From Streptomyces clavuligerus (GTDB lineage: Bacteria; Actinomycetota; Actinomycetes; Streptomycetales; Streptomycetaceae), in assembly GCF_005519465.1 (NCBI RefSeq), contig NZ_CP027858.1, positions 2,294,001-2,358,000 on the forward strand: a DNA stretch of 64,000 bases, written 5' to 3'. A program made the translations under genes and the position numbers. Positions 23,743-56,834 of this stretch are shown here, piece after piece (the first letter of the stretch is position 1; the number at the start of each line of letters is the position of its first letter). The notes below the pieces were generated by a model. It was not told where the DNA came from and did no database searches. It saw only the letters and a program-made list of their open reading frames with translations.

Positions 23743-23754
23743 CTACGCGCGTAG
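23743..23754. promoter_or_regulatory. CTACGCGCGTAG palindrome before pnp
   Basis: Exact 12-bp palindrome, 25 bases before the pnp GTG start. The same 12-mer stands before deoC (30034) and before the nucleoside importer operon (55587), with a half-degenerate copy before bmpA (56823). Close to the start codon, it would overlap the transcription start region, fitting a repressor operator. The binding protein is unknown. Confidence 0.8.
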
Positions 23755-23779
23755 GGAATCAGCGGTTACTCTCATTCGC

Positions 23780-24610
23780 GTGAACGCACATGTGAATCCG
23801 GACCTCGACGGCACCAGCGCCGATCCCCACCGGGCGGCCGGTGCCGCGGCTGCCCGTCTGCGCGAGCTGACCGGCGCCGAAACCCACGACGTCGCCCTGG
23901 TGATGGGCTCCGGCTGGGCCCCGGCCGTGGACGCGCTCGGCGCGCCCGAGGCCGAGTTCCCGGTGACCGAACTGCCCGGCTTCCCGCCGCCGGTGGTCGC
24001 GGGCCACGGCGGCAAGATCCGCTCGTACCGCATCGGTGACAAGCGTGCCCTGGTCTTCCTCGGCCGTACGCACTACTACGAGGGCCGGGGCGTCGCCCCC
24101 GTCGCCCACGGTGTGCGCACCGCCGTCGCAGCGGGCTGCAAGACCGTCGTCCTCACCAACGGCTGCGGCGGTCTGCGCGAGGGCATGCGCCCCGGGCAGC
24201 CCGTCCTGATCAGCGACCACATCAACCTCACGGCGACCTCGCCGATCGTGGGCGCGAACTTCGTCGACCTGACGGATCTGTACTCGCCGCGGCTGCGGAC
24301 GCTCTGCAAGGACATCGACCCCTCGCTGGAGGAGGGCGTGTACGTGCAGTTCCCCGGCCCGCACTACGAGACCCCGGCCGAGATCAACATGGTGCGGGTC
24401 CTCGGCGGCGACCTGGTGGGCATGTCCACCGTCCTGGAGGCCATCGCCGCGCGTGAGGCGGGCGCCGAGGTGCTGGGCATCTCCCTGGTCACCAATCTGG
24501 CGGCGGGCATGAGCGGCGAGCCGCTCAACCATGAAGAGGTGCTCCAGGCCGGCCGCGACTCGGCCGCCCGCATGGGCGAGCTGCTGACGCGGGTGCTGGC
24601 CCGCATCTGA
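23780..24610 (+). CDS. Purine nucleoside phosphorylase
   Basis: 276 residues from GTG 23780. Splits purine (deoxy)ribonucleosides with phosphate into base and (deoxy)ribose-1-phosphate. It belongs to the trimeric PNP/MTAP family: phosphate loop [11 protein letters not shown] (near 42), [10 protein letters not shown] with the conserved His (near 100), [18 protein letters not shown] (near 195), [14 protein letters not shown] methionine segment and [16 protein letters not shown] with the base-binding Asn/Glu region. Length fits the trimeric class. It is followed, after a strong hairpin, by the phosphosugar mutase gene that could convert its product. The operator palindrome upstream ties it to deoC and the nucleoside importer. 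Confidence 0.95.
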
Positions 24611-24720
24611 CCGGCCCCGGCCGGTCGTCGCCCACGGCCCCCAGCCCCCTTGTCGCGAAGGCGGTGGCGGGCGCGGCGCGGCCGACGGCACGACCGGCTC
24701 CGGCAGCAGAGCACCGGGCA

Positions 24721-24750
24721 CGTCCGGGCGGGACCGTTCCCGCCCGGACG
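24721..24750 (+). terminator. Strong hairpin between pnp and the mutase gene
   Basis: cgtccgggcggga / tcccgcccggacg, a perfect 13-bp stem with a CCGT loop, 111 bases after pnp. It suggests the mutase gene is not simply read through from pnp. Confidence 0.7.
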
Positions 24751-24755
24751 TTCGC

Positions 24756-24860
24756 GTTGTCCCGGCCGTACCGCGGGTATACGTCGTCCCGGCCCCACCC
24801 CCGGGTGGACGTGGTCCCGGCCCCGTCCGGGTACCCGTTCCCGGCCGTGCCCGGGTCCGC
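24756..24860. repeat. Four imperfect tandem copies of a ~26-bp unit
   Basis: Units begin gttgtcccggcc (24756), gtcgtcccggcc (24783), gtggtcccggcc (24811) and gttcccggcc (24837), each followed by a short ccgnggt or cgggt segment. They occupy the leader between the hairpin and the mutase start (24919), inside a 308-base gap without genes. Confidence 0.65.
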
Positions 24861-24918
24861 GCGGACCCGGCACAGCAGGACCCAGCAGACAGAGCAGCAG
24901 GAGAAAAGGGGAGCGAGC

Positions 24919-26565
24919 GTGCAGCAGGACCAGGATCTCTTGGCGCGGGCCCGGACGTGGCTGGCCGAGGACCCGGACCCGGACACCCGGGCCGAGCTGG
25001 ACCGCCTCATCGAGGCGGGCGACACGGCGGAGCTGGCCGACCGGTTCGGCGGCACCCTCCAGTTCGGCACCGCCGGACTCCGCGGCGAACTGGGCGCGGG
25101 CCCCATGCGGATGAACCGCTCCGTGGTCATCCGCGCCGCCGCGGGCCTCGCCGCGTATCTGCGGGCCCAGGGCCAGGGGGACGGCCTCGTCGTCATCGGC
25201 TACGACGCCCGCTACAAGTCGGCCGACTTCGCCCGGGACACGGCGGCGGTCATGGTCGGCGCGGGGCTGCGTGCCGCGCTGCTGCCCCGTCCGCTGCCGA
25301 CGCCCGTCCTCGCCTTCGCGATAAGGGAGCTGGGCGCCGTGGCCGGGGTGGAGGTCACCGCCAGCCACAACCCGCCGCGCGACAACGGCTACAAGGTCTA
25401 TCTGGGCGACGGCTCCCAGATCGTGCCCCCGGCGGACACCGGGATCGCGGCGGAGATCGCCGCGGTCCGCTCCCTGGCCGACGTCCCGCGCCCCGACTCC
25501 GGCTGGCAGGTCCTCGGCGACGAGGTCCTGGACGCCTATCTGGCCCGTACGGACGCCGTCCTCACCCCCGGTTCGCCGCGCACCGCCCGGGTCGTCCACA
25601 CCGCGCTGCACGGGGTGGGCACGGCCGTGCTGACGGCCGCGTTCGCCCGCGCGGGCTTCCCCGAGCCGGTGCTCGTGGCGGAGCAGGCCGAGCCCGACCC
25701 GGCGTTCCCGACGGTGGCCTTCCCCAACCCGGAGGAGCCGGGCGCGATGGACCTCGCGTTCGAGACCGCCCGCCGGGTCCGGCCGGACATCGTGATCGCC
25801 AACGACCCCGACGCGGACCGCTGCGCCGTCGCCGTCCCCGACGGCGAGGACTGGCGGATGCTCCGCGGCGACGAGGTCGGCGCCCTGCTCGCCGCCCATC
25901 TGGTCCGGGGCGGCGCGCACGGCACCTTCGCCGAGTCGATCGTCTCCTCCTCGCTGCTGGGCCGGATCGCCGAGGCGGCCGGCGTCGGCCACGAGGAGAC
26001 CCTCACCGGCTTCAAGTGGATCGCCCGGGTCGAGGGGCTGCGCTACGGGTACGAGGAGGCGCTGGGCTACTGCGTCGACCCCGAGGGCGTCCGGGACAAG
26101 GACGGCATCACGGCGGCGCTGCTCGTCGCCGAGCTGGCGTCCGTCCTCAAGGAGGAGGGCCGCACCCTCACGGACCTGCTGGACGAGCTGGCCGTGGCAC
26201 ACGGTCTGCACGCCACCGACCAGCTCTCGGTACGGGTGAAGGACCTCGGCATCATCGCGGACGCCATGCGCGCCCTGCGGTCCGCCCCGCCCGCCGAACT
26301 GGCCGGTCTCGCGGTGACCTCGGCCGAGGACCTGAGCGAGGGCAGCGCCGCGCTGCCCCCGACGGACGGTCTGCGCTACTACCTCGACGGCGCGTTCAAG
26401 GCCCGTGTGATCGTCCGCCCCAGCGGCACCGAGCCCAAGCTCAAGTGCTACCTGGAGGTCGTGGTCCCGGTCCCCGCCCCGGCCGGCCTCCCGGCGGCCC
26501 GGGAGCGCGCCACCGAGGTCCTCACCGCCCTGAAGCGCGACCTGTCGACGGCCGCGGGCATCTGA
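24919..26565 (+). CDS. Phosphohexomutase-superfamily enzyme, probably acting as phosphopentomutase/phosphomannomutase
   Basis: 548 residues from GTG 24919, after agggg-ag. Interconverts sugar 1- and 6(5)-phosphates through a phosphoserine. Visible: GTAGLRGELGAGPMRMN near 50; catalytic phosphoserine loop VTASHNPPRDNGYKVY (near 155); metal loop NDPDADRCAVA (near 297); sugar-specificity loop YEEALGYCVDPEG (near 375); phosphate-binding RPSGTEPKLKCYLE (near 505). The length and EEALGY loop match the Gram-positive PgcA/PmmB branch, some members of which act on ribose-1-phosphate and deoxyribose-1-phosphate. No deoB-type phosphopentomutase is present, so between pnp and deoC this gene is the natural candidate for that step. 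Inference from context, not sequence proof. Confidence 0.9.
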   Translation: MQQDQDLLARARTWLAEDPDPDTRAELDRLIEAGDTAELADRFGGTLQFGTAGLRGELGAGPMRMNRSVVIRAAAGLAAYLRAQGQGDGLVVIGYDARYKSADFARDTAAVMVGAGLRAALLPRPLPTPVLAFAIRELGAVAGVEVTASHNPPRDNGYKVYLGDGSQIVPPADTGIAAEIAAVRSLADVPRPDSGWQVLGDEVLDAYLARTDAVLTPGSPRTARVVHTALHGVGTAVLTAAFARAGFPEPVLVAEQAEPDPAFPTVAFPNPEEPGAMDLAFETARRVRPDIVIANDPDADRCAVAVPDGEDWRMLRGDEVGALLAAHLVRGGAHGTFAESIVSSSLLGRIAEAAGVGHEETLTGFKWIARVEGLRYGYEEALGYCVDPEGVRDKDGITAALLVAELASVLKEEGRTLTDLLDELAVAHGLHATDQLSVRVKDLGIIADAMRALRSAPPAELAGLAVTSAEDLSEGSAALPPTDGLRYYLDGAFKARVIVRPSGTEPKLKCYLEVVVPVPAPAGLPAARERATEVLTALKRDLSTAAGI

Positions 26566-26572
26566 CCCCGCC

Positions 26573-26601
26573 CCCGGCCGCCCCGCCACGGGGCGGCCGG
26601 G
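26573..26601 (+). terminator. Terminator after the mutase gene
   Basis: Perfect 12-bp arms cccggccgcccc / ggggcggccggg with a 5-base loop, eight bases after the stop codon. Confidence 0.8.
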
Positions 26602-26809
26602 CCCTCACAGACCACTGCGAACACCGGCACCGCCGGGACGCGCCGGGCGGTACCGGCCCCCTGGCCAGGGCTCCCCGTCCACCGGGGACCGGACCCACCG
26701 CCGGGGCGGGACGACCGCCGCCCGGCGGTCACGGGCTTCCCGGGCGTACGGGTGAATCTGCCGCGGAATCCCGGGTGCGGGGCGTGCTCGTGGCGGTGGG
26801 ACGGCGATC

Positions 26810-28063
26810 GTGAGCCGGACGTGCCCGCCGACATCAGGAGCCGCGCCGTTGTCCCCCGCCGCGACCGCTCACCCTTCCTCCTCCCCCTCCGTCCCCGCGT
26901 CCCGGCGGACCCGGGGTCCGTCGGAGAGGGCCGCCGGGAGCGCGGGGCCGGGCGGACGGCTGGCGCGGTCCCTGCGGCGGGCCGCGCCCGCGCTCGCCGC
27001 GTACACCGCCGTGCGGCTCTGCGGGCTGCTGCTGGTCGCCCGGCTCGCGCACGCGCAGGGCACCGGCCTCTGGCCGGTGCTCGCGTCCTCCTGGGACTCG
27101 GACTGGTACCTGGGCATCGCGGCCCACGGCTACGCCGACTCCCTGGGCACCCGGGTCAACGCCAACAACCTGGCCTTCTTCCCGCTCTACCCGGTCCTCG
27201 TACGCGGGCTCGCCGCACTCGTGCCCGGCCCGGCCGCGGCGGCGGCGCTGCTGCTCGCGGTGGGGTGTTCCCTGCTCGCCGCGTGGGGCGTCTTCGCCGT
27301 GGGCGACCGGCTCCACGGCCGCCGCGCCGGCACCCTGCTCGCGGTGGCCTGGGGAGCGCTGCCGGTGGCGCAGGTCCAGTGGATGGCGTACACGGAGTCG
27401 CTGTTCACGGCGCTGGCCGCGTGGTCGCTGTACGCGGCGCTCGGCGGCCGGTGGCCCCTCGCGGGCGCCCTCGCGGCGCTGGCGGGGCTGACCCGCCCCA
27501 CCGGAGTCGCCGTGGCCGCGGCCGTCACCCTGGCCGCCCTGCTCGCCTGCCGCCGCGCACCCCGCGTCCGGGCGGTGACGGGCGCGCTGCTCGCGCCGCT
27601 GGGCTGGCTGGCGTATGTCGCCTGGGTGGGGCTGCGGGTCGGCCGCCCGGACGGCTATTTCGCCGTCCAGCGGCTGTGGAAGAACGAGTGGGACGGGGGC
27701 CGCGCCACCCTGCTGGAGCTGCGTCAGCAACTGCTCTACGCGAGCCGTCCACCGCTGTTCGTGCTGCTGGTCTCGGCGGTGCTGATCGTCTCGTCGGTGC
27801 TGTACGTGCTGTCGCTCGCCGACCGGCAGCCGCTGGTGCTGCTGGTGTTCAGCGGGGTGCTGCTGCTGGTGGTGCTGGGGAGCGCGGGGGTCTACTTCCC
27901 CCGGGCCCGCTTCCTGCTGCCCGCCTTCCCCCTGCTGCTGCCCGTCGCGCGGGCGCTCGCCGCCGCGCGTCCGGTGACGGTGGCCGTGGTGCTCGTCTCG
28001 GCGACGGCGCTGTCGGCGTGGACGGGCGCGCACATGCTCCTGGTGTGGAACGGTCCGCCCTGA
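26810..28063 (+). CDS. PIG-V-like GT-C mannosyltransferase family membrane protein
   Basis: 417 residues from GTG 26810; a TTG at 26849 has a better ribosome site (aggag, 8 bases) and would remove 13 residues. After a basic, Ser/Pro-rich cytoplasmic lead, about 9-10 membrane segments follow. The first extracytoplasmic loop carries WDSDWYLGIAAHGYAD, with the acidic residues of GT-C glycosyltransferases, then NNLAFFPLYPVLVR and later AYTESLF and LTRPTG, all hallmarks of the PIG-V/DUF2029-like group that adds mannose or other sugars from polyprenyl-phosphate donors. The acceptor is unknown; cell-wall glycans or protein O-mannosylation are options. Single gene after a terminator; the next gene is on the other strand. 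Confidence 0.85.
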   Translation: MSRTCPPTSGAAPLSPAATAHPSSSPSVPASRRTRGPSERAAGSAGPGGRLARSLRRAAPALAAYTAVRLCGLLLVARLAHAQGTGLWPVLASSWDSDWYLGIAAHGYADSLGTRVNANNLAFFPLYPVLVRGLAALVPGPAAAAALLLAVGCSLLAAWGVFAVGDRLHGRRAGTLLAVAWGALPVAQVQWMAYTESLFTALAAWSLYAALGGRWPLAGALAALAGLTRPTGVAVAAAVTLAALLACRRAPRVRAVTGALLAPLGWLAYVAWVGLRVGRPDGYFAVQRLWKNEWDGGRATLLELRQQLLYASRPPLFVLLVSAVLIVSSVLYVLSLADRQPLVLLVFSGVLLLVVLGSAGVYFPRARFLLPAFPLLLPVARALAAARPVTVAVVLVSATALSAWTGAHMLLVWNGPP

Positions 28064-28099
28064 CGGGGGTCCGCCCCGCGACGCCCGCCCGCGGCGGGG

Positions 28100-28717
28100 T
28101 CACCCCAGCGCGAAGAGAACGGCGAGCAGCACCGCGCCGACGGCGGCCGGGGCCATGATCTCGTACGCCCAGCGGATCGCGACCTCGCCCTTGGTGCCCG
28201 GGCTCCCGGCGTGGTGCTCGCACAGCAGCCGCAGCTCACGGATGGTCTGATCGACCTGCGCGAGCTTCACCTCGCCCTGCGGGTTCTCCCCCTTGGCGCT
28301 CGCGCGGGCGAGCTTCATCTGCTGGCGGTTGGCCCGCTTGCGCTGCCGCAGCGAGACCGGGACGGCCCACATCGGGTACTTCGTCCCGTCCTCGGTGACC
28401 AGCTCGGTGGAGTACGCGGCCCGGAACTCGTCGACCGAGGCCCAGGGGACGTCGATCGTGCGGAACGGATTGCGGACCCGCACCCGGCGCTCGCCCGCGA
28501 GGACGACGGGCCGCAGGGTGAACGCCACCACCAGCGGCAGCACCAGCAGCAGCCAGGCGACGGCGAACCAGGGCGTGCGCCCCTCGCCCCGGAGGATCGC
28601 GTCCCCGCCGAGCCACACGGCCAGGCCGAGCAGCAGCACACCCCCCACCATTCCGGCGGGTGATCGGAACGCCCGATCCGGGTACGAGGACTCCACGGGC
28701 GGCTGCGAGCTGGTCAT
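28100..28717 (-). CDS. Bacterial PH-domain membrane protein
   Basis: 205 residues from ATG 28717. Two hydrophobic segments near residues 25-72 (VGGVLLLGLAVWLGG; FAVAWLLLVLPLVVAF), then a PH-like domain (about 73-120) with RRVRVRNPFRTIDVPWASVDEFRA, the b-strand pattern of DUF-type bPH proteins. A basic, coiled segment follows (RQRKRANRQQMKLARAS), and a last membrane helix reaches the C-terminus (AAVGAVLLAVLFALG). Such proteins are common and uncharacterised in actinobacteria. It converges with the mannosyltransferase gene at a distance of only 36 bases. Confidence 0.8.
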   Translation of the reverse strand: MTSSQPPVESSYPDRAFRSPAGMVGGVLLLGLAVWLGGDAILRGEGRTPWFAVAWLLLVLPLVVAFTLRPVVLAGERRVRVRNPFRTIDVPWASVDEFRAAYSTELVTEDGTKYPMWAVPVSLRQRKRANRQQMKLARASAKGENPQGEVKLAQVDQTIRELRLLCEHHAGSPGTKGEVAIRWAYEIMAPAAVGAVLLAVLFALG

Positions 28718-28813
28718 ACCCCCGATTCTGCCCCACGGCCCCCACGGGCCGCGCCCGGCTCCCGCCCCGCGCCGCCGGGTGACCCGCGCGGACGGATCAC
28801 CCGGCGCGCCTCC

Positions 28814-29227: not shown

Positions 29228-29257
29228 CGCACCCTCCGATTCCGCTGGATTCCCACA

Positions 29258-29325
29258 CGTCGTTGTCGTCGTGTCGTCGTTGCCGTCGTTATCGCTGTTG
29301 GCGCTGTTGTCGCCGTCGCCGTACG
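29258..29325. repeat. GTC/GTT trinucleotide-like tract
   Basis: Runs of cgttgtcgtcgtgtcgtcg and related ttgtcgccg words fill the space between the two crystallin-like genes; simple-sequence DNA without coding signs. Confidence 0.6.
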
Positions 29326-30030: not shown

Positions 30031-30033
30031 CAG

Positions 30034-30045
30034 CTACGCGCGTAG
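30034..30045. promoter_or_regulatory. CTACGCGCGTAG palindrome before deoC
   Basis: Exact copy of the pnp operator, ending 13 bases before the deoC GTG. At this distance it must overlap the transcription start or the ribosome-binding region, fitting repression. Confidence 0.8.
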
Positions 30046-30058: not shown

Positions 30059-31015
30059 GTGAGCATGCCCATCGCACCCGCATCCGCCCTCCCGGAGGTC
30101 ACCGCCTCCGATCAAGCCCTCCGTCGCTTTCTGCACGGGCTCCCGGGGGTCGACCCCGTCGGGCTCGAAGCGCGGGCCGCGTCCCTCGGGACCCGGTCGA
30201 TCAAGACGAGCGCCAAGGCGTACGCCATCGATCTGGCGATCTCGATGATCGACCTCACCACGCTCGAAGGCGCCGACACCCCGGGCAAGGTCCGGTCCCT
30301 GGCCGCCAAGGCCGTGCACCCCGACCCGACCGACCGGACCAGCCCGACGACCGCCGCCGTCTGCGTCTACCCGGACCTGGTGGCCACCGCCAAGGAGGCG
30401 CTGAACGGCGCGGACGTCAAGGTCGCGTCCGTCGCCACCGCCTTCCCCGCGGGCCGGGCCGCCCTCGGCGTCAAGCTCGCCGACACCCGGGACGCGGTCG
30501 CCGCCGGGGCCGACGAGATCGACATGGTCATCGACCGCGGTGCCTTCCTGGCCGGAAAGTATCTGAAGGTCTACGAGGAGATCCTCGCCGTCAAGGAGGC
30601 CGCGGGCCCGGCCCGGCTGAAGGTCATCTTCGAGACCGGCGAGCTGTCGACGTACGACAACATCCGCCGCGCGAGCTGGCTCGGCATGCTCGCGGGTGCC
30701 GACTTCATCAAGACCTCCACCGGGAAGGTCGCGGTCAACGCCACCCCGGCCAACACCCTGCTGATGCTGGAGGCCGTCCGGGACTTCCGGCTCCAGACCG
30801 GTGTCCAGGTCGGGGTGAAGCCCGCGGGAGGCATCCGCACCACCAAGGACGCGATCAAGTTCCTCGTCCTGGTCAACGAGACCGCGGGCCCGGACTGGCT
30901 GGCCAACCGGTGGTTCCGTTTCGGTGCCTCCAGCCTGCTCAACGATCTGCTGATGCAGCGCCAGAAGCTGGCCACCGGCCGCTACTCCGGCCCCGACTAC
31001 GTGACTGTGGACTGA
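30059..31015 (+). CDS. deoC: Deoxyribose-phosphate aldolase
   Basis: 318 residues from GTG 30059 (ATG 30065 possible). Cleaves 2-deoxy-D-ribose-5-phosphate into D-glyceraldehyde-3-phosphate and acetaldehyde. Visible: IDLTTLEG at the start of the barrel, AAVCVYPDLVATA, VASVATAFPAG, AGADEIDMVIDRGAFLAG, KVIFETGEL, FIKTSTGK with the Schiff-base lysine, VGVKPAGGIRTTKDA with the second active-site lysine. It is longer than E. coli DeoC (259) owing to N- and C-terminal extensions, as in the actinobacterial/human-like class. The aldehyde dehydrogenase gene starts five bases after the stop, so acetaldehyde removal is translationally close. Preceded by the shared operator. Confidence 0.97.
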   Translation: MSMPIAPASALPEVTASDQALRRFLHGLPGVDPVGLEARAASLGTRSIKTSAKAYAIDLAISMIDLTTLEGADTPGKVRSLAAKAVHPDPTDRTSPTTAAVCVYPDLVATAKEALNGADVKVASVATAFPAGRAALGVKLADTRDAVAAGADEIDMVIDRGAFLAGKYLKVYEEILAVKEAAGPARLKVIFETGELSTYDNIRRASWLGMLAGADFIKTSTGKVAVNATPANTLLMLEAVRDFRLQTGVQVGVKPAGGIRTTKDAIKFLVLVNETAGPDWLANRWFRFGASSLLNDLLMQRQKLATGRYSGPDYVTVD

Positions 31016-34971: not shown

Positions 34972-35715
34972 TCAGGCCACCAGCTCGCCGAAGGACTCCT
35001 CCTCGTCACGGCCGAAGCTGAGGACCTGGTCCTCGCGCAGCCGGCGCAGCGAACGCCAGATGCTCGACTTCACCGTGCCGACACTGATGTCCAGGATCTG
35101 CGCGATCTCCGGGTCGGTGCGGCCCTCGTAGTACCGGAGGACCAGCATCGTCCGCTGGAGTTCGGGAAGCCTGGCCAGCGCCTGCCAGAGCACGGCCCGC
35201 AGCTCGGTCCCCCGCATCGCGTCGGTGTCGCCCGCCGTCTCCGGCAGCTCCTCCGTGGGGTACTCGTTGAGCTTGCGCCGCCGCCAGGCGCTGATGTGCA
35301 GATTCGTCATGGTCCTGCGGAGATAGCCGCCGACCGCCGCCTTGTCGCTGATCCGGTCCCAGGCCCGGTAGGTGGAGAACAGCGCGCTCTGGAGCAGGTC
35401 CTCGGCCTCGAAGCGGTCGCCGGTCAGGTGGTAGGCGGTCGCGTACAGGGAGGAACGACGTTCCTGCACATAGGCGGTGAACTCCGCCTCCGTGAGGGCC
35501 TGCCGTCCCCCGTTGTTCTCCCGGTACGCGGCCGCTCCCGTGCCGGCGCCCCCCGTGGCACCGTCGACGACCGACATGTACGGCGCCTTGTGCTGGCGCC
35601 CGGTGCCGCGCACGCACCCCCGTCCGTTCACGGCACCGGACTTCTCCGTGCTCCGTCCGACATCGTGAAGACGCGTGACGACTGCGCTTGAGGTCGTGCT
35701 GTGCAGTGCCTTCAT
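34972..35715 (-). CDS. sigQ: ECF sigma factor SigQ (SigE-family)
   Basis: 247 residues from ATG 35715 with aggggggc upstream. Directs RNA polymerase to a special promoter set. After about 75 poorly conserved residues: region 2 (FTAYVQERRSSLYATAYHLTG, EAEDLLQSALFSTYRAWDRI, AVGGYLRRTMTNLHISAWRR) and region 4 (LARLPELQRTMLVLRYYEGRTDPEIAQILDISVGTVKSSIWRSLRRLRE). No anti-sigma gene follows. It is divergent from afsQ1, exactly as sigQ is in S. coelicolor, where AfsQ1 activates sigQ and SigQ counteracts AfsQ1/Q2 effects on antibiotic production (established). The N-terminal extension with two Cys (GRGCVRG only one clear) has no known role. Confidence 0.93.
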   Translation of the reverse strand: MKALHSTTSSAVVTRLHDVGRSTEKSGAVNGRGCVRGTGRQHKAPYMSVVDGATGGAGTGAAAYRENNGGRQALTEAEFTAYVQERRSSLYATAYHLTGDRFEAEDLLQSALFSTYRAWDRISDKAAVGGYLRRTMTNLHISAWRRRKLNEYPTEELPETAGDTDAMRGTELRAVLWQALARLPELQRTMLVLRYYEGRTDPEIAQILDISVGTVKSSIWRSLRRLREDQVLSFGRDEEESFGELVA

Positions 35716-35816: not shown

Positions 35817-35926
35817 AGGGAAAGAGGAGAGCAGTCCTGTGACGGCTGGGGCGACGGCGGTGCTGGTCGGGGGCATCGGGGTGCGGCCGGTCGAAGCCCG
35901 GCGCGGCCATGGGCCAGAATGGGCCC

Positions 35927-40864: not shown

Positions 40865-42013
40865 TTAACCTCCCGAAGAACTGCTGGCCACAGCGGTCTG
40901 CGAGAACAGCCATTCGGACTTCAACTCGGAAAATCCAGGTTTGATCACATCATTGATCATCGCCAATCGTTCATCGAAAGGAATGAATGCCGATTTCATG
41001 GCATTGACGGTGAACCACTGAATGTCGTCGAGTGAGTATCCGAAGGCTTCGGTCAGCCGCTCGAACTCCTGCGACACACTGGTCCCGGACATCAGCCGGT
41101 TGTCGGTGTTGACCGTGGCACGGAAGTGCAGTCGGCGGAGCAGCCCGATGGGGTGGTCCGCGTAGGAGCCGACGGCGCCGGTCTGGAGGTTCGACGTCGG
41201 GCACAGTTCCAGGGGGACGCGCCGGTCGCGCACATAGGCGGCGAGCCGGCCGAGGGTCACCTCGCCGTCGGCGCCGACGGTGATGTCGTCGACGATGCGG
41301 ACACCGTGGCCGAGCCGGTCGGCCCCGCACCACTGGAGCGCCTGCCAGATCGAGGGGAGTCCGAACGCCTCACCGGCGTGGATGGTGAAGTGGTTGTTCT
41401 CCCGCTTGAGATATTCGAAGGCGTCGAGATGGCGGGTGGGCGGATGTCCCGCCTCGGCCCCCGCGATGTCGAAGCCGACGACTCCCGTGTCCCGGTGGCG
41501 GTTGGCCAGTTCGGCGATCTCCAGGGAGCGGGCGGCGTGCCGCATGGCCGTCAGGAGCGCGCCCACCCGGATGCGCCGGCCGTTCTCGCGGGCCAGCCGC
41601 TCCCCTTCCCGGAAGCCCTCGTTCACCGCCGCCACGACCTCTTCGAGACCGAGCCCGCCCTCCAGGTGCTGTTCGGGCGCGTAGCGGACCTCCGCGTACA
41701 CGACGCCGTCCGCGGCCAGGTCCTCCGCGCACTCGGCGGCGACCCGGAAGAGCGCGTCGGCGGTCTGCGTCACGGCGCAGGTGTGCGCGAAGGTTTCGAG
41801 GTAGCGCTCCAGCGAGCCGGAGTCGGCGGCTTCGCGGAACCAGGCACCGAGCCGGTCGGGCTCGGTCTCGGGCAGCGCCTCGTAGCCCGCGTCCCGGGCG
41901 AGGTCGACGACCGTACCGGGGCGCAGGCCACCGTCGAGATGGTCGTGGAGGAGCACCTTCGGGGCACGGCGGATCTGCTCCGCAGTGGGGGTATTGAGGG
42001 GCTTTGTCGCCAT
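40865..42013 (-). CDS. add: Adenosine deaminase
   Basis: 382 residues from ATG 42013. Converts (deoxy)adenosine to (deoxy)inosine, feeding purine nucleoside phosphorylase. Zinc-TIM-barrel motifs: [14 protein letters not shown] (metal His-x-His), [23 protein letters not shown] with metal His and catalytic Glu, GHGVRIVDD (catalytic His), [12 protein letters not shown], and [10 protein letters not shown] containing the metal Asp. Length is as in S. coelicolor enzymes. No CTACGCGCGTAG upstream, but a ccctgtgtacaggg element precedes it. Divergent from the alpha/beta hydrolase gene. Confidence 0.96.
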
Positions 42014-42115
42014 TGGCGCACTCTAGCCCTGTGTACAGGGAGGGAGCCGGGGCGCTCCGTAACAATGACCGTGCATTCGGGTGGCTCGGAGAACCCCTTC
42101 TGCCAGTGTTCAGCC

Positions 42116-49709: not shown

Positions 49710-50987
49710 TCAGGCCAGGCGATCCAGCACGATCGGGGACGGGGTGAAGTCCGTGCCGGCGGGGGCGATGTCGTAGGCCGACGCCAGCGGGGCCAGGGCG
49801 TAGTCGAACTTCTCCGGGGTGTCGGTGTGCAGGGTCAGCAGGGGCTGGCCCGCGGTGACGCGGTCGCCCGGCTTGGCGTGGAGCTCGACGCCCGCGCCCG
49901 CCTGGACCGGGTCCTCCTTGCGGGCGCGGCCCGCGCCCAGGCGCCAGGCGGCGATGCCGATGTCGTAGGCGTCGAGGCGGGTCAGCACACCGGAGGCGGG
50001 GGCGGTGACGACATGCCGCTCGCGGGCGACGGGCAGTTCCGCGTCCGGGTCGCCGCCCTGGGCGGAGATCATCCGGCGCCAGACGTCCATGGCGGAGCCG
50101 TCGGCGAGGGCCTTCGCCGGGTCGGCGTCCTTGACCCCGGCGGCGTCGAGCATCTCGCGGGCCAGCGCGAGGGTCAGCTCCACGACATCGGCGGGGCCGC
50201 CGCCCGCGAGGACCTCGACGGACTCGCGGACCTCCAGGGCGTTGCCCGCCGTCAGCCCGAGCGGGGTCGACATGTCGGTGAGGAGCGCGACGGTCCGCAC
50301 CCCGCTGTCGGTGCCCAGGGCCACCATGGTGGAGGCCAGCTCACGGGCGTCGTCGAGGTTCTTCATAAAGGCGCCGGAGCCGACCTTGACGTCCAGGACC
50401 AGCGAGCCGGTGCCCTCGGCGATCTTCTTGGACATGATGGAGGAGGCGATCAGCGGGATCGCCTCGACCGTGCCGGTGACATCGCGCAGCGCGTAGAGCT
50501 TCTTGTCGGCGGGGGCGAGGCCGTCGCCCGCCGCGCAGATGACCGCGCCGGTGGTGTCGAGGACGTGCAGCATCTCCTCGTTGGAGAGCAGCGCCCGCCA
50601 GCCGGGGATGGACTCCAGCTTGTCCAGGGTGCCGCCGGTGTGGCCGAGGCCCCGGCCGGAGAGCTGGGGCACGGCGGCGCCGCACGCGGCGACCAGCGGG
50701 GCGAGCGGCAGGGTGATCTTGTCGCCGACGCCGCCGGTGGAGTGCTTGTCGGCGGTGGGGCGGGAGAGCGCGTCAAAGTTCATCCGCTCGCCGGAGGCGA
50801 TCATCGCGGCGGTCCAGCGGGCGATCTCCGTCCGGTTCATCCCGTTGAGGAGGATCGCCATCGCCAGCGACGACATCTGCTCGTCGGCGACCTCGCCCCG
50901 GGTGTACGCGTCGATCACCCAGTCGATCTGCTCGGGGCTCAGCTCCCCGCGGTCCCGCTTGGTCCGGATGACGGAGATGACGTCCAT
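49710..50987 (-). CDS. deoA: Thymidine phosphorylase
   Basis: 425 residues from ATG 50987 with ggagg. Cleaves thymidine or deoxyuridine with phosphate. Visible: MDVISVIRTKRDRGELSPEQIDWVI, ADKHSTGGVGDKITLPLAPLVAACG (phosphate loop), GLGHTGGTLDKLESIPG, DVTGTVEAIPLIASSIMSKKIAEG, LVLDVKVGSGAFMK, and the C-terminal PYNP domain with GAGRARKEDPVQAGAG. Last gene of the importer-cdd cluster; a 14-bp-stem hairpin separates it from cdd, so its level may be set by attenuation or its own promoter. Products feed the mutase and DeoC. Confidence 0.97.
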   Translation of the reverse strand: MDVISVIRTKRDRGELSPEQIDWVIDAYTRGEVADEQMSSLAMAILLNGMNRTEIARWTAAMIASGERMNFDALSRPTADKHSTGGVGDKITLPLAPLVAACGAAVPQLSGRGLGHTGGTLDKLESIPGWRALLSNEEMLHVLDTTGAVICAAGDGLAPADKKLYALRDVTGTVEAIPLIASSIMSKKIAEGTGSLVLDVKVGSGAFMKNLDDARELASTMVALGTDSGVRTVALLTDMSTPLGLTAGNALEVRESVEVLAGGGPADVVELTLALAREMLDAAGVKDADPAKALADGSAMDVWRRMISAQGGDPDAELPVARERHVVTAPASGVLTRLDAYDIGIAAWRLGAGRARKEDPVQAGAGVELHAKPGDRVTAGQPLLTLHTDTPEKFDYALAPLASAYDIAPAGTDFTPSPIVLDRLA

Positions 50988-51086: not shown

Positions 51087-51488
51087 TCACGCCAGGTGTG
51101 CCGGGCCGAAGGGCTGGGGCAGGAGCTGCTCCAGCGTGACGATCCCGCCGGGGGTGTCGAGCAGCAGCCCGGGGCCCCCGAACTCGTACAGGAGCTGACG
51201 GCAGCGGCCACAGGGGACCAGCGGCCCGCCCGTGCGGTCCACGCAGGTGAAGTGGGTCAGCCGGCCACCGCCGCCCGCCTGGAGCGCGGAGACGAGACCG
51301 CACTCGGCGCAGAGCGAGAGGCCGTAGGAAGCGTTCTCGACATTGCAGCCGGTGACCGTGCGGCCGTCGTCGACCAGCGCGGCCACGCCGACCGGGAAAC
51401 CCGAGTAGGGCGCGTACGCGCGGGCCATGGCCGCGCGCGCCTGAACCCGCAGGGCCTCCCAGTCGAACCCGGCCGCCGCCGTCGTCAC
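51087..51488 (-). CDS. cdd: Cytidine deaminase
   Basis: 133 residues from GTG 51488, overlapping the permease stop by four bases. Converts (deoxy)cytidine to (deoxy)uridine. Homotetrameric class: YAPYSGFPVGVAALVDDG, TGCNVENASYGLSLCAECGLV (zinc Cys and catalytic Glu in CAE), and LVPCGRCRQLLYEF with the two further zinc Cys. Length is normal. Coupling to the nucleoside importer fits intake followed by deamination. Confidence 0.96.
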   Translation of the reverse strand: MTTAAAGFDWEALRVQARAAMARAYAPYSGFPVGVAALVDDGRTVTGCNVENASYGLSLCAECGLVSALQAGGGGRLTHFTCVDRTGGPLVPCGRCRQLLYEFGGPGLLLDTPGGIVTLEQLLPQPFGPAHLA

Positions 51489-52774
51489 TTGCCCTGGCCC
51501 TTGCGGTAGCGCATGCCGTCCGCCTTGGGCATTCTCAGCCGTTGCGCGGAGAGCGAGAGCACCAGCAGGGTCACCACATACGGGGTCGCGGCCACGAACT
51601 CGGTCGGGACCACGTCCGTGCCGAGGTACCAGGCCAGCACGGCCAGGCCGATGACTCCGCTGATCGCGCCCTGGAGGTAGCTCTTGCGGTAGAGCTTCCA
51701 GACGGCGAGGACGATCAGGACCACGACGAGCAGGAGCAGCAGCGCGTGGACGGACTCGCCGCCGTTGCGGAGCTGGAGGGCGTCGGCGTAGCCGAAGAGG
51801 CCCGCGCCCATGGCGAGGCCGCCGGGGCGCCAGTTGCCGAAGATCATCGCCGCGAGGCCGATGTAACCGCGGCCACCGGTCTGGCCCTCGTTGTAGATGT
51901 GCGAGGTGACCAGCGACAGGAAGGCGCCGCCGAGGCCCGCCATACCGCCGGAGACGATCACGGCGATGTACTTGTACTTGTAGACGTTGACGCCGAGGGA
52001 CTCCGCGGCGATCGGGTTCTCGCCGCAGGAGCGCAGCCGCAGACCGAACGCGGACTTCCACAGCACCACGAAGGTGCCGACGAAGAGCAGCACGGCCACG
52101 ATCGTGAGCAGCGAGACATCGGTGACCAGACCGGCGAGGATGCCCGCGAGGTCGGAGACGAAGAACCACCCGTGGTCCTCGATCGACTTCAACCCGTCGG
52201 AGAGGCCGGGGACGGTGATGTCGGCGATGCTGTCCGCCGGTGGGGACTGCTTGGGGCTGCCGCCCTTCTCCAGGGCCTCACCGGTGTTGAACCAGAGCTT
52301 GGCGAGGTAGGTGGTGAACCCGAGCGCCAGGATGTTGATCGCGATACCGGAGATGATGTGGTCCACGCCGAAGGTGACCGTGGCGACCGCGTGCAGCAGA
52401 CCGCCGAGCATGCCGCCCAGCACACCGGCGAGCACGCCGATCCAGGGGTTGGTCTGCCAGCCCGCCCAGGCGCCGAAGAAGGTGCCCAGGATCATCATGC
52501 CTTCGAGGCCGATGTTGACCACACCGGCGCGCTCGGCCCACAGACCGCCGAGACCGGCGAGACCGATCGGCACCGCCATCGCCAGCGCCGTGCTGATCTG
52601 GCCGGAGGAGGTGATGTCCTCGGCCCCGGTGATGACGCGCACCGCGGACAGGGCCAGCAGCGCGCCCGCGATGATCAGCAGGATCACCGGGAAGGAGAGG
52701 CGGACACGGCCGCCCTTGCCACCGCTCACCTTGGGTGCGGCGGGCGGCGGGGTGGAAGTCGCCGTGGCGCTCAC
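51485..52774 (-). CDS. Nucleoside ABC transporter permease 2
   Basis: 429 residues from GTG 52774, overlapping the first permease by four bases. BPD_transp_2 (RbsC/LivH-like) permease: GLGGLWAERAGVVNIGLEGMMILGTFFGAWAGW, GVDHIISGIAINILALGFTTYLA, FGLRLRSCGENPIAAESLGVNVYKYKY, GGMAGLGGAFLSL. About 9-10 helices. The signature GEN-P-AAESLG is typical of the BmpA-linked nucleoside/guanosine importers (NupQ-like). Part of the ATPase-permease-permease-cdd chain. Confidence 0.95.
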   Translation of the reverse strand: MSATATSTPPPAAPKVSGGKGGRVRLSFPVILLIIAGALLALSAVRVITGAEDITSSGQISTALAMAVPIGLAGLGGLWAERAGVVNIGLEGMMILGTFFGAWAGWQTNPWIGVLAGVLGGMLGGLLHAVATVTFGVDHIISGIAINILALGFTTYLAKLWFNTGEALEKGGSPKQSPPADSIADITVPGLSDGLKSIEDHGWFFVSDLAGILAGLVTDVSLLTIVAVLLFVGTFVVLWKSAFGLRLRSCGENPIAAESLGVNVYKYKYIAVIVSGGMAGLGGAFLSLVTSHIYNEGQTGGRGYIGLAAMIFGNWRPGGLAMGAGLFGYADALQLRNGGESVHALLLLLVVVLIVLAVWKLYRKSYLQGAISGVIGLAVLAWYLGTDVVPTEFVAATPYVVTLLVLSLSAQRLRMPKADGMRYRKGQGK

Positions 52775-53883
52775 GCCGACACCTCCTGCTGGTCGGAGTT
52801 ACGGGCCTGGGCGGCGAGCTTGGCGCCGACCTGCCGTTGCTGGAGCTTGAGGCCGTAGCGGCGCACGACCTCGTAGGCGATGACGACGCACAGGACGATG
52901 ACGCCCTGGATGACGCCGACGATCTCCTTGTCGTAGCCCTGGAATTCGAGCTGGCCGCTGCCGCGCTCCAGGAAGGCCCACAGCAGCGCGCCGAGGGCGA
53001 TGCCGACCGGGTGGTTGCGGCCGAGCAGGGCGATGGCGATACCGGTGAAGCCGACGCCGACCGGGAAGTCGCCGCTGTACTCGTAGCTCTCGTTGAGCAG
53101 CGTCGGCATGCCGACCAGACCGGCCATGGCGCCGGAGATCAGCATGGAGGTGACGACCATGCGCTTGACGTTGACGCCGCTGGCCTCGGCGGCGGAGCCG
53201 GACTGGCCGACGGTGCGCAGGTCGAAGCCGAAGCGGGTGCGGGAGAGGGTGAACCAGTAGCCGATGCCCGCGATCACGGCGACCACGATGAAGCCCCAGA
53301 CCGGGGCCGGGGTGGTCGGGAACTCGAAGAAGTGCGCGGACTCCGGCAGCGGCTTGGTCGCGATCTTGGTCCCGGCGGCGTCCAGGTGGCCGAGGCGGCC
53401 CTGCTGGAGGAGGTAGCCGATGATCGCGGTCGCGATCGCGTTCAGCATGATCGTGGAGACGACCTCGCTGACGCCCCGGGTGACCTTGAGGACACCCGCG
53501 ATACCGGCCCACATCGCGCCGACGAGCATGGCGCAGATGATGATCATCGGGATCTGGAGCGGGGCGGGCAGGGTCACCGCGCCGCCGAGGGCCGCGGCGA
53601 AGAAGGCCGCGAGCCGGTACTGGCCGTCCACACCGATGTTGAACAGGTTCATCCGGAAGCCGACGGCGACCGCGATGCCCGCCAGGTAGTACGTGGTGGC
53701 CTTGTTCAGGATGTAGACCTGGCTGTCCGACTTCGAGCCGTAGTCGAACATGATGCCGAACGCGTTGAACGGTTCCTTGCCGGTCGCCAGCAGCACCAGC
53801 GCGGTGACCAGGAACGCGACGACGATCGCGAGCAGCGGGGCGGCGATCCCCAGGAGCACCCGCTCCTTGTCGAACTTCTTCAT
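52771..53883 (-). CDS. Nucleoside ABC transporter permease 1
   Basis: 370 residues from ATG 53883, overlapping the ATPase stop (atga). NupP-like permease: helix 1 LGIAAPLLAIVVAFLVTALVLLATG, AGIAVAVGFRMNLFNIGVDGQYRLAAFFAA, GVLKVTRGVSEVVSTIMLNAIA, RTVGQSGSAAEASGVNVKRMVVTS. Longer soluble loop near 175-195 (AAGTKIATKPLPESAHF), as in homologues. Pairs with permease 2 to form the membrane channel. Confidence 0.95.
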   Translation of the reverse strand: MKKFDKERVLLGIAAPLLAIVVAFLVTALVLLATGKEPFNAFGIMFDYGSKSDSQVYILNKATTYYLAGIAVAVGFRMNLFNIGVDGQYRLAAFFAAALGGAVTLPAPLQIPMIIICAMLVGAMWAGIAGVLKVTRGVSEVVSTIMLNAIATAIIGYLLQQGRLGHLDAAGTKIATKPLPESAHFFEFPTTPAPVWGFIVVAVIAGIGYWFTLSRTRFGFDLRTVGQSGSAAEASGVNVKRMVVTSMLISGAMAGLVGMPTLLNESYEYSGDFPVGVGFTGIAIALLGRNHPVGIALGALLWAFLERGSGQLEFQGYDKEIVGVIQGVIVLCVVIAYEVVRRYGLKLQQRQVGAKLAAQARNSDQQEVSA

Positions 53884-55544
53884 CGGTCCTCTCCCCCGCC
53901 CTGGGGGTCGTCGCCGCCGGTGTCGGCGGCGTCGGTGGCGTCGTGGTGTTCCAGATGGCCGGAGGCCGCGCCGGTCATGGCCGAGCCCAGCTCCTCGGGG
54001 GTGATGTCGGCCGGGTCGGCGTCCGCCACCAGCCGGCCGCGGTACATGACCCGCAGGGTGTCGGAGAGCCCGATCAGCTCGTCCAGGTCGGCGGAGATCA
54101 GCAGGACCGCCAGGCCCTCGCGGCGGGCCTCGCGGATCTGGTCCCAGATCTGCGCCTGCGCGCCGACGTCCACGCCCCGGGTGGGGTGGGCCGCGATCAG
54201 CAGCTTGGGCCGGTGGCTCATCTCGCGGCCGACGATCAGCTTCTGCTGGTTGCCGCCGGAGAGCGAGGCCGCGGTGACGTCGATGCCGGGGGTGCGGACG
54301 TCGTACTCGCGCACGATCCGCTCGGTGTCGGCGCGGGCCGCCCGGAGGTCGAGGAAGGCGCCCTTGCTGTTGGGGCGCTCGGTGACATGGCCGAGGATGC
54401 GGTTCTCCCAGAGGGGGGCCTCCAGGAGCAGACCGTGCCGGTGGCGGTCCTCGGGGATGACGCCGATGCCGTCCTCGCGGCGCTTGCGGGTCGGCAGGGC
54501 GGCGATGTCCTCGCCGTCGAAGACGAGGGTGCCGCTGTCCAGGTGGCGCATCCCCATGATCGCCTCGACCAGCTCGGACTGGCCGTTGCCCTCCACTCCG
54601 GCGATGCCGAGGACCTCGCCCTGGTGGATGGTGAAGTCGATGCCGTCGAGCACCGCGCGGACCACCCCGTCGGGGTCGGTCGCGGTCATCCGCAGCCCCT
54701 CGACGGTGAGCATCGGGACATCGGTGACCGTGGACTCACGGGTCTCCGGCGAGGGCAGTTCGCTGCCCACCATCAGCTCGGCGAGCTGCTTGGGGGTGGT
54801 GGAGGCCGGGTCGGCGGTGCCGACCGTGGTGCCCCGGCGGATCACCGTGATGTCGTCGGCGACCGACAGCACCTCGCCCAGCTTGTGCGAGATGAAGATG
54901 ACCGTGAGGCCCTCGGCCTTGAGCTCGCGCAGATTGTCGAAGAGGGCGTCGACCTCCTGCGGGACCAGGACGGCGGTCGGCTCGTCCAGGATCAGGATGC
55001 GCGCGCCGCGGTAGAGGACCTTGAGGATCTCCACCCGCTGGCGGTCGGCGACGCCCAGGTCCTCGACCATGACATCGGGCCGCACATTGAGCCCGTACGC
55101 GTCCGAGATCTCCTTGATCTTCGCGCGGGCCCGGTCGCCGATCCCGTACAGCTTCTCGGAGCCGAGAACGACGTTCTCCAGGACCGTGAGGTAGTCGGCG
55201 AGCATGAAGTGCTGGTGCACCATGCCGATGCCGCAGGCGATGGCGTCCCCGGGGGTGTGGAAGGAGACGTCCTGGCCATCGATGGTGATCGTGCCCTCGT
55301 CCGGCTTCTGCATGCCGTAGAGGATCTTCATCAGGGTGGACTTGCCTGCGCCGTTCTCACCCATGAGGGCGTGGACGGTGCCGCGGGTCACGGTGATGTC
55401 GATGTCGTGGTTGGCCACGACGCCGGGGAAGCGTTTGGTGATGCCGCGCAGCTCCACGGCGTTGGGGCTGCTGGGCCTGTCGGCGGCCTGCGGACTGCTG
55501 GACGGTTTGATGGCGCACTCTCCAGGACTGGAGCGGAGGAGCAT
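53880..55544 (-). CDS. Nucleoside ABC transporter ATP-binding protein (two ABC domains)
   Basis: 554 residues from ATG 55544; no good ribosome site precedes it, and the first 25 residues are poorly conserved in type, so the start may lie slightly downstream. RbsA-type duplicated ATPase: domain 1 with Walker A GENGAGKST, Q-loop MVHQHFMLAD, signature-like region LGVADRQRVEI, Walker B ILILDEPTAVL; domain 2 with degenerate Walker A GVEGNGQSE, signature LSGGNQQKLIVG, and HPTRGVDVGA. This is the pattern of BmpA-linked nucleoside importers. First gene of the importer operon, with an operator palindrome 43 bases upstream. Confidence 0.95.
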   Translation of the reverse strand: MLLRSSPGECAIKPSSSPQAADRPSSPNAVELRGITKRFPGVVANHDIDITVTRGTVHALMGENGAGKSTLMKILYGMQKPDEGTITIDGQDVSFHTPGDAIACGIGMVHQHFMLADYLTVLENVVLGSEKLYGIGDRARAKIKEISDAYGLNVRPDVMVEDLGVADRQRVEILKVLYRGARILILDEPTAVLVPQEVDALFDNLRELKAEGLTVIFISHKLGEVLSVADDITVIRRGTTVGTADPASTTPKQLAELMVGSELPSPETRESTVTDVPMLTVEGLRMTATDPDGVVRAVLDGIDFTIHQGEVLGIAGVEGNGQSELVEAIMGMRHLDSGTLVFDGEDIAALPTRKRREDGIGVIPEDRHRHGLLLEAPLWENRILGHVTERPNSKGAFLDLRAARADTERIVREYDVRTPGIDVTAASLSGGNQQKLIVGREMSHRPKLLIAAHPTRGVDVGAQAQIWDQIREARREGLAVLLISADLDELIGLSDTLRVMYRGRLVADADPADITPEELGSAMTGAASGHLEHHDATDAADTGGDDPQGGGEDR

Positions 55545-55585
55545 GAGGCGGGTCGGTGGCGGGCAAACTATCGCGCGGAGAGGGA

Positions 55586-55599
55586 GCTACGCGCGTAGC
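55586..55599. promoter_or_regulatory. CTACGCGCGTAG palindrome before the nucleoside importer operon
   Basis: Contains the exact 12-mer at 55587-55598, extended to a 14-bp palindrome g...c. It lies 43 bases upstream of the ATPase start and downstream of the bmpA terminator, so it belongs to a separate promoter. Confidence 0.8.
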
Positions 55600-55652
55600 G
55601 CCGCCAGATCGTGCAGGAACCGGACGCAGAGCATCCGATTCCACACGCGCGT

Positions 55653-55692
55653 CGGGGCCCGGAGGACGGCACGGCCGCTCGTCCGGGCCCCG
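55653..55692 (-). terminator. Terminator after bmpA
   Basis: cggggcccgga / tccgggccccg, a perfect 11-bp stem with an 18-base loop, 13 bases beyond the bmpA stop. It separates bmpA from the importer operon. Confidence 0.75.
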
Positions 55693-55705
55693 ATGGCAGC
55701 GGCGA

Positions 55706-56758
55706 TCAGGTGGTGGTCTTGACCTTGATCTGGCCGTCGATGATCTTCTTCTTCGCCTCGTCGATCTTGCCCTGGATGTCCTTCAGGTGGCCACCCGTGG
55801 TGGTGAGGCTGACACCGTCCTCGGCGAGGGTGTAGGCGTGGGTGCCGGTCAGCGGCTTGCCGTCCTTGACGGACTTGGCCAGCGCGAAGACACCCGCGTC
55901 CACGTTCTTGACGACCGAGGTCAGGATGGTGGAGGCGTACTTCGCCAGCGCCGGGTCCTTGGCCTGGTCCGAGTCGACGCCGATGGACCAGGCGCCCTTC
56001 TTGCCCGCCACGGCCTCGATCGCGCCGGCGCCGGAGCCGCCCGCCGCGGTGTAGATGACGTCCATGCCCTTGTCGAGCATGCCCTGGGCGGCGGCGCGGC
56101 CCCGGTCGGGGCTGCCGAAGCCGGACAGGTCCGTGCCGTAGCTCAGGTACTGGAGCTGGACCTTCGCCTTGGGGTTGGTGTCCAGGACACCCTGCTCGAA
56201 GCCCGCGGCGAACTTCTTGATCAGCGGCAGGTCGACACCGCCGATGAAGCCGACCTTGCCGTCCTTGGACTTCAGGGCGGCGGCGACACCGGCGAGGTAC
56301 GAGCCCTGCTCCTCGGCGAAGACGATGCTGTCGACGTTCTTGTGCTCGGAGATCGAGTCGACCATGCCGAACGTCGTCTTCGGGAACTGCACGGCGACCT
56401 TGTCGACCGCGTCCTTGTAGGCGAAGCCGACGGCGAAGACGGGGTTGAAGCCGCCCTTCGCCAGCGAGGCGAGGCGGGCCTCACGGTCGGCGGGGGTCTC
56501 GCCGTGCTTGGCGGTCAGCTCCTTGGTCTCCGCGCCCAGCTCGGCCTTGGCCTTGTCCAGACCGCGGGCGGCGGAGTCGTTGAAGGAGTTGTCGCCACGG
56601 CCGCCGACGTCGTAGGCCATACCGATCTTGAGCTTGCCCGCGGCGTCCCCCGAGCCGGAGCCCGTGTCCTCGGTGGAGGACTCTCCGCACGCGGTGGCGG
56701 TGAAAGCGAGGGCCGCGGTCGCGATGCACGCGGCAGTGATCTTGGATACCCGGCGCAA
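55706..56758 (-). CDS. bmpA: BmpA-family nucleoside-binding lipoprotein
   Basis: 350 residues from TTG 56758 (LRRVSKITAACIATAAL), with aaggga about ten bases upstream. The ORF extends to 56857, but that stretch carries the operator and lacks signal-peptide logic. Lipobox ATAC (Cys about 22), then a Ser/Gly/Asp linker, then the PBP1-Med domain: KIGMAYDVGGRGDNSFNDSAARGL, VFAVGFAYKDAVDKVA, GMVDSISEHKNVDSIVFAEEQGSYLAGVAA, GFIGGVDLPLIKKFAAGFEQG, VIYTAAGGSGAGAIEAV. The ligand is probably purine and pyrimidine nucleosides, as for PnrA/BmpA proteins. Confidence 0.95.
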   Translation of the reverse strand: MRRVSKITAACIATAALAFTATACGESSTEDTGSGSGDAAGKLKIGMAYDVGGRGDNSFNDSAARGLDKAKAELGAETKELTAKHGETPADREARLASLAKGGFNPVFAVGFAYKDAVDKVAVQFPKTTFGMVDSISEHKNVDSIVFAEEQGSYLAGVAAALKSKDGKVGFIGGVDLPLIKKFAAGFEQGVLDTNPKAKVQLQYLSYGTDLSGFGSPDRGRAAAQGMLDKGMDVIYTAAGGSGAGAIEAVAGKKGAWSIGVDSDQAKDPALAKYASTILTSVVKNVDAGVFALAKSVKDGKPLTGTHAYTLAEDGVSLTTTGGHLKDIQGKIDEAKKKIIDGQIKVKTTT

Positions 56759-56822
56759 GAGAAGGGGTCCCTTCGAGACTGACCGAAAGCGCCTCTTCCC
56801 GGCGCTGGTTTTGTCGCGATCG

Positions 56823-56834
56823 TAACGCGCGTAG
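56823..56834. promoter_or_regulatory. Half-conserved CTACGCGCGTAG site before bmpA
   Basis: taacgcgcgtag keeps the acgcgcgt core and the right half exactly; the first two bases differ. It lies 65 bases before the TTG start, next to AT-rich atgtcagttaaag. The rest of the gap 56759-57212 shows a small gcggcg/cgccgc hairpin at 57159-57174 and no gene. Confidence 0.6.

Follow-up and report, generated by a model that had tools for sequence, protein, structure and literature searches.

An operator-like palindrome at nucleoside genes

We analysed a 64,000-nucleotide stretch of the Streptomyces clavuligerus genome (contig NZ_CP027858.1, positions 2,294,001 to 2,358,000; hereafter the window, with coordinates counted from its first letter), in which a 12-bp palindrome, CTACGCGCGTAG, precedes genes of nucleoside salvage and probably acts as the operator of a regulon found across the Streptomycetaceae. 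Genes were named from NCBIfam and Pfam scans of part of the open reading frames (ORFs) of the window. A pattern search over its full length found exact copies at 23743-23754, 30034-30045 and 55587-55598, the three places given by an earlier reading of the letters alone (the initial annotation), at the distances that it reported from the start codons of pnp and deoC and one base closer to that of the importer (42 bp, not 43).

The first copy stands 25 bp before pnp (purine nucleoside phosphorylase, 23780-24610, forward strand; PF01048, 5e-43 on the enclosing ORF 23345-24610), and the second lies 13 bp before deoC (deoxyribose-phosphate aldolase, 30059-31015, forward strand; TIGR00126, 3e-55 on the enclosing ORF), one base ahead of a presumed -10 element, TATGCT; both genes have GTG starts, read from the sequence. 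The third copy is found 42 bp before the ATPase gene of a BMP-type importer (53880-55544, reverse strand, start not refined; an ABC ATPase with NF047930 as best match, below cut-off), which is followed on the same strand by two permease genes (51485-53883; best matches NF047928 and NF047929, putative B6 ABC permeases, below cut-off), by cdd (cytidine deaminase, 51087-51488, start read from the sequence; NF004064, 1.5e-51 on the enclosing ORF) and by deoA (thymidine phosphorylase, 49710-50987; NF004490, 5e-193). On the same strand, bmpA encodes a BMP-family lipoprotein (55706-56758, with a TTG start inferred at 56758 and the longest ORF beginning at 56857; NF047927, 1e-26, below cut-off), and about 64 bp before it a variant of the palindrome, CTACGCGCGTTA, occupies 56823-56834 on the reverse strand, its right end running into a presumed -10 element, TTACGAT. 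The window also holds add (adenosine deaminase, 40865-42013, reverse strand, start at 42013; PF00962, 1e-103).

The three exact copies are the only ones in the entire genome (8,544,086 bases on two contigs), which agrees with the initial remark that the window holds no other, and the reversed sequence, used as control, has zero copies in the same 8.54 Mb. Markov models of orders 1 to 5 built on the window predict 0.001-0.006 exact copies per 64 kb (the rough initial estimate was about 0.01) and 0.16-0.78 copies in the genome. Three genome copies would share a single 32-kb span with a probability of about 4e-5, and no other 12-bp palindrome reaches three occurrences in the window. When up to two mismatches are allowed, the window has four matches against a shuffle mean of 3.81, and since this count does not exceed chance the signal rests on exactness. 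Two-mismatch copies in the genome number 163 per strand, below the reversed control (479), so we rejected them as targets and treat them as background; 15 such loci (L338-L352), a part of those listed, showed no convincing target.

Conservation across genomes

We searched for exact copies in three samples, of the genus, the family and the class, that overlap in part of their genomes. All 151 sampled genomes of the genus carry CTACGCGCGTAG, with two to six copies each compared to zero to three of the reversed control, as do all 150 sampled Streptomycetaceae genomes, which cover 16 of 16 genera and hold one to six copies each. In the class-wide sample of 246 genomes, the 26 members of the genus all have the site, with a sum of 100 copies compared to 15 for the control, and it occurs in nine of the 220 genomes outside the genus; six of these nine were inspected (L144-L146 and L248-L252), and in none does it stand at a core gene, that is, pnp, deoC, add or the importer.

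Conservation before orthologous genes, which the initial annotation had suggested as a check, is nearly complete for pnp and deoC. Across 80 loci anchored on the neighbouring deoR gene, 77 of 78 readable pnp promoters carry exact CTACGCGCGTAG and the remaining one has a single mismatch; the deoC promoters of these loci are exact in 52 of 54 cases, with one mismatch in one and two in another. The loci behind these counts, and likewise those for bmpA and for the genera with few exact copies described below, were not chosen by their own site. The sequences that flank the site differ between the pnp and deoC classes, and, presumed -10 elements aside, the conserved block common to both ends at the 12 bp. 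In genera with few exact copies, the same places are taken by sites with a single mismatch, in most cases a transition (CTACGCGCATAG and CTACGCGTGTAG are examples). Outside the family, 25 deoC loci have no exact or one-mismatch site upstream, and two of them have a two-mismatch site.

Placement of the copies

We assigned every exact copy to a target in 17 genomes, namely that of S. clavuligerus, 15 of the 20 others with listed copies (G016, G070, G077, G094 and G120 were left out) and G107, chosen for its six copies. These hold 67 copies, of which 17 are at deoC, 16 at pnp, 16 at add, 10 at the importer ATPase gene (one of these assignments being below 70% identity) and one at an add paralogue. 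The core genes thus take 59 of 67 copies. Two further copies (L132, L229) are located in the space that separates a 5'-nucleotidase gene from a divergent GNAT gene, at roughly 60 and 70 bp from either gene, and two precede secreted nucleases of the ExeM/NucH type (L133, L231); for both pairs, homology within the pair was checked and domains were scanned. With these, 64 of 67 copies stand at nucleoside or nucleic-acid genes and three have no assigned target (L137, L138, L162), so the site is less frequent before unrelated genes; equal frequency there was what the initial annotation had named as fatal to its proposal. Its statement that all copies fall in promoters of one pathway fits the S. clavuligerus genome, where all three belong to this regulon.

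Among loci fetched because they hold a site, 18 of 19 add promoters carry it, and among 18 importer promoters, many of them from regions fetched in the same way, 11 have an exact and four a one-mismatch site. In the S. clavuligerus add promoter, positions 42028-42039 carry CCTGTACACAGG, with 5-bp arms, and its spacing to the presumed -10 element (TAGAGT) is almost the same, possibly an operator swap. One locus (L237) has two operator copies (at 1213 and 1536) in mirror orientation, 323 bp apart between deoC and a divergent PH-domain-like gene, a region that looks like a duplicated promoter.

A fixed variant before bmpA

The initial annotation regarded the site before bmpA as a half-degenerate copy. 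It does differ from CTACGCGCGTAG at two positions, but we rejected the view that it is a decayed site, as the same 12 letters, CTACGCGCGTTA on the bmpA strand, occur in 21 of 21 bmpA promoters read (that of the window and those of 16 of the 18 loci fetched, four loci having two bmpA genes), and we regard it as a fixed variant. A search of 16 genomes returned 25 copies of CTACGCGCGTTA, of which 19 precede bmpA, with at least one such bmpA site in every genome; S. clavuligerus has a single copy, the one before bmpA. The right end of the variant enters the presumed -10 element (TTACGAT or TTAATCT), and this merging may account for the two fixed differences from CTACGCGCGTAG. Away from bmpA, CTACGCGCGTTA recurs at matching places in pairs of genomes (L315 with L328, L320 with L330), in one example 90-odd bp away from a gene whose sequence alone suggests a SIMPL/DUF541-like product; such paired sites are possible further targets.

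Targets beyond the core

The S. clavuligerus genome has 12 one-mismatch copies, four of which sit 33-54 bp before genes of nucleotide metabolism: purS-purQ-purL, a Xan_ur permease gene, a 5'-nucleotidase gene, and an operon encoding a CN-hydrolase, a class III aminotransferase and a dihydropyrimidinase. The dihydropyrimidinase passes TIGR02033 and the CN-hydrolase has N-carbamoylputrescine amidase as its best match, below cut-off; we infer that this operon degrades pyrimidines. Finding at least four of 12 at such genes by chance has a probability below 1e-7, even allowing for 150 such genes with 150 bp each, a figure that flatters the regulon reading because the gene set was recognised after the genes had been seen. 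The remaining eight copies lie in coding sequence or have no clear target, one being at the start of rpoB.

Another genome carries an exact copy 51 bp before purS (L235), matching the place of the one-mismatch site in S. clavuligerus, and all four genomes examined from one sister genus have an exact copy between purN and a gene for a membrane protein (L216, L218, L222, L223). The single nucleoside regulon of the initial annotation is supported and was drawn too narrowly, as it also takes in add and more.

Further copies touch other genes. In five genomes (L166, L236, L242, L244, L246), a second add gene carries the operator across its first codons, which include GCT and GTA; these codons are rare in GC-rich Streptomyces, and since they are used there the operator seems to be itself selected. 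In six genomes of two genera (L217, L219, L221, L224, L234, L243), the operator lies before or across the start of the long ORF of an uncharacterised secreted protein; these proteins have 517-572 residues and a weak ABC_transp_aux match (L255:3202-4917, L256:1139-2710, L257:4488-6038).

Proposed mechanism and alternatives

We propose that a single dimeric transcription factor uses CTACGCGCGTAG as its operator and controls the supply of nucleosides and nucleobases throughout the Streptomycetaceae, a reading to which we give a probability of roughly 85% from sequence evidence: the observed position, exactness and conservation of the site and the identity of its targets. The core targets would be pnp, deoC, add, the BMP-type nucleoside importer with cdd and deoA downstream, and bmpA; membership of secreted nucleases, 5'-nucleotidases, a Xan_ur-type permease, the dihydropyrimidinase operon and purSQL appears less regular and depends on the clade. 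With respect to presumed promoters, the site lies between -35 and -10 at deoC, at about -35 at pnp, and merges with the -10 element at bmpA. At deoC it fills the gap between a TGTACA/TGACA element and TATGCT, and the deoC transcript is probably leaderless, because TATGCT is only six to seven bases from the GTG start. As the site overlaps or adjoins the presumed core promoter at an offset that differs from gene to gene, the factor would be a repressor, and the build-up of a product of nucleoside breakdown or of pentose supply, for example a (deoxy)ribose phosphate or phosphoribosyl pyrophosphate, might release it from the site.

An activator bound to the same site is an unlikely alternative to the repressor. 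Positions near -35 (pnp) and within the spacer between -35 and -10 (deoC) would be compatible with an activator of class II or of the MerR-like type, but activators usually need a fixed face and distance, and here the offset from the presumed -10 element varies from zero (bmpA) through one (deoC) and four (add) to about 12 bases (pnp), with the importer site lying close to the start codon in some genomes. Far less probable still, to the point of being negligible, is that the palindrome repeats by chance or has another nature (a restriction or methylation site or a mobile repeat) and is found near these genes by coincidence. Restriction sites are typically short rigid palindromes, and copies do occur in unrelated genomes (the nine of 220 above), yet the placement of 64 of 67 copies, the presence in 16 of 16 genera, the conservation in orthologous promoters and the differing flanks of pnp and deoC all speak against this explanation, which is already contradicted by the conservation and placement tests. 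We rejected a chance origin on the genome count and the Markov expectation as well as on these tests.

Independent data in favour of the operator reading come from S. lividans, where SCO4917 (pnp), SCO4914 (deoC) and SCO4901 (add) rise in a single comparison, with log2 values of 3.70, 3.24 and 2.16 (PMC6302529, Table 3). Several observations weigh against it. The importer and bmpA genes are absent from that same table, which lists pnp, deoC and add (PMC6302529), and the open-access literature that we searched yielded no binding or expression experiment on the site. In S. clavuligerus, no sequence upstream of add matches the site at up to two mismatches, while other genomes regularly have it there, and three of the 18 importer promoters have no site. 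Among 35 Streptomycetaceae loci, part of 40 regions fetched mostly as extra copies, ten have the operator inside coding sequence or beside no recognisable target (L215, L220, L225, L232, L233, L238-L241, L245), and the same holds for six of the 25 CTACGCGCGTTA copies. Finally, one would expect the response of purSQL and purN to run opposite to that of the catabolic genes, so that a single, simple inducer logic may not serve for every target. Two of the ten loci (L239, L240) mirror each other, with the operator about 171.5 kb from each end of a 12.1-Mb contig and no clear adjacent gene; they presumably sit in terminal inverted repeats.

Which protein binds the operator

The first candidate for the binding protein, put forward tentatively, is the DeoR-family regulator encoded at 19748-20758 on the reverse strand, which combines a DeoR helix-turn-helix (HTH, PF08220) with a DeoRC sensor domain (PF00455). 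Among the window ORFs scanned, no other HTH regulator turned up within a few kb of a core target. Orthologues with 72-88% identity occur in 23 of 23 Streptomycetaceae genomes searched, all of which also have the operator, and their first 60 residues, the HTH, are nearly identical, in parallel with the unchanging operator. A PDB search gave one match, 7l6l, the sensor domain of an E. coli-type deoxyribose operon repressor. We take the gene to be the orthologue of SCO4920, from gene order. SCO4920 is central in an inferred network enriched in sigma factors, with no nucleoside genes named in the passages concerned (PMC3224704), and another paper has it only in a table of glucose-affected regulators (PMC4848846).

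Other evidence speaks against this candidate. None of the 78 deoR promoters that could be located by their conserved end (of the 80 loci) contains exact CTACGCGCGTAG; an autoregulatory site is usual in such regulons, if not obligatory. The promoter is strongly conserved over the 80 loci and carries another repeat, the imperfect inverted repeat TTCGGCGCATACTGCTGAA (20791-20809, reverse strand, with strong column conservation). In the genome, TTCGGCGCATACTGCTGAA has a single other copy within two mismatches, inside an ORF, and five copies with three mismatches, and it is possibly the separate, true operator of DeoR. Of three homologues with 59-68% identity in another family, those of G191 and G179 belong to genomes without the site; a 68% homologue from that family's siteless genomes has the same SEVTVRRD recognition helix. 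The third genome, G227, has a 61% homologue and a single exact copy, not within 10 kb of the homologue gene. Four DeoR homologues from other families, each examined with about 20 kb of surrounding sequence, have no site within one mismatch there. The deoR promoter region (20759-20850) looks leaderless, with a TTCGGCGCATACTGCTGAA-like repeat over the 80 loci.

We see even odds that the operator and the regulon are real and that an unlinked regulator, such as a PurR-like protein sensing purines or one of the LacI, GntR or XRE type, is the binder, with DeoR controlling itself or other genes. The conserved deoR promoter, with its TTCGGCGCATACTGCTGAA-like sequence in place of the 12-mer, argues for such a protein, as do the site before purS in two genomes and a gene for an 84-residue XRE-type HTH protein at roughly 0.4-0.7 kb from a site in two genomes. 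It is opposed by the standing of DeoR as the sole HTH regulator found near a core target, by the near invariance of its HTH in 23 genomes, by the one exact copy in G227 together with a 61% homologue, and by the precedent of E. coli, where DeoR controls deoC, deoA and deoD. The XRE-type genes (L335:6834-7085 and L162:1642-1887) adjoin a methionine-aminopeptidase-like gene, named from sequence, and the operators near them precede different genes, the dihydropyrimidinase operon and a gene for a HAD phosphatase.

Relation to known systems

The open-access literature that we searched, with most subscription papers and RegPrecise lying outside it, gave no description of the CTACGCGCGTAG operator or its regulon, nor of the control of purine and nucleoside supply in Streptomyces; the 12-mer string returned no match on bacterial nucleoside regulation by title and abstract, and the inner 10-mer no relevant match by title. 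In E. coli, the DeoR/CytR regulon comprises deoCABD, cdd, udp, nupC, nupG and tsx, and thus covers the same steps (deoC, pnp/deoD, deoA, cdd and nucleoside uptake). The regulon described here differs in including add, secreted nucleases, 5'-nucleotidase and purSQL and in having scattered genes, each as a rule with one 12-bp site. The PurR regulons of B. subtilis and E. coli join de novo purine genes with the uptake of nucleosides and bases, a combination of pur genes and uptake that recurs here, whereas the present regulon has a catabolic core (deoC, pnp, add), to which pur genes are added only occasionally. Neither the E. coli DeoR operator TGTTAGAATTCTAACA nor the E. coli PurR box ACGCAAACGTTTGCGT has a match in the window at up to three mismatches.

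NupR of Bacillus thuringiensis, of the GntR/HutC type, controls nucleoside transport and is comparable, by description only, as a dedicated regulator of nucleoside uptake (PMC9430930). In S. coelicolor, the SCO4914 (deoC) promoter is listed among those bound and repressed by WblC/WhiB7, but WblC is an antibiotic-response regulator with a broad regulon, and the passage concerned names cvnA1, guaB2, SCO3064, wblE and citA beside SCO4914, not pnp or add (PMC7157823). Compared with S. lividans, S. coelicolor has a jointly higher abundance of SCO4901 (add) and several nucleases (PMC7244524), and the SCO4914 protein is lower in an argR mutant (PMC3293853).

Significance

We lean slightly towards a broader view, in which one undescribed master regulator, fixed in the Streptomycetaceae, would act through this 12-bp operator to link nucleic-acid breakdown to nucleotide supply, joining extracellular breakdown of nucleic acids, dephosphorylation, import of nucleosides and bases, the catabolism of purines and pyrimidines and some of the de novo synthesis of purines, with an operator constrained enough to be found by exact string match in 16 of 16 sampled genera. 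If so, one regulator governs how these soil bacteria scavenge the building blocks of DNA and RNA. Nucleotide pools feed (p)ppGpp, the onset of antibiotic production, nucleoside antibiotics and the recycling of DNA from dying hyphae. The operator can serve as an exact bait in pull-down, comes with its targets already listed and allows the DeoR neighbour to be tested cleanly, which makes the question of the regulator directly testable in a laboratory strain.

Other features of the window

An ORF for a phosphoglucomutase/phosphomannomutase (PF02878, PF02879 and PF02880) lies downstream of pnp at 24664-26565 on the forward strand, its start not refined. Between deoC and add, the window encodes a SigE-type sigma factor at 34972 and a response regulator at 35909.

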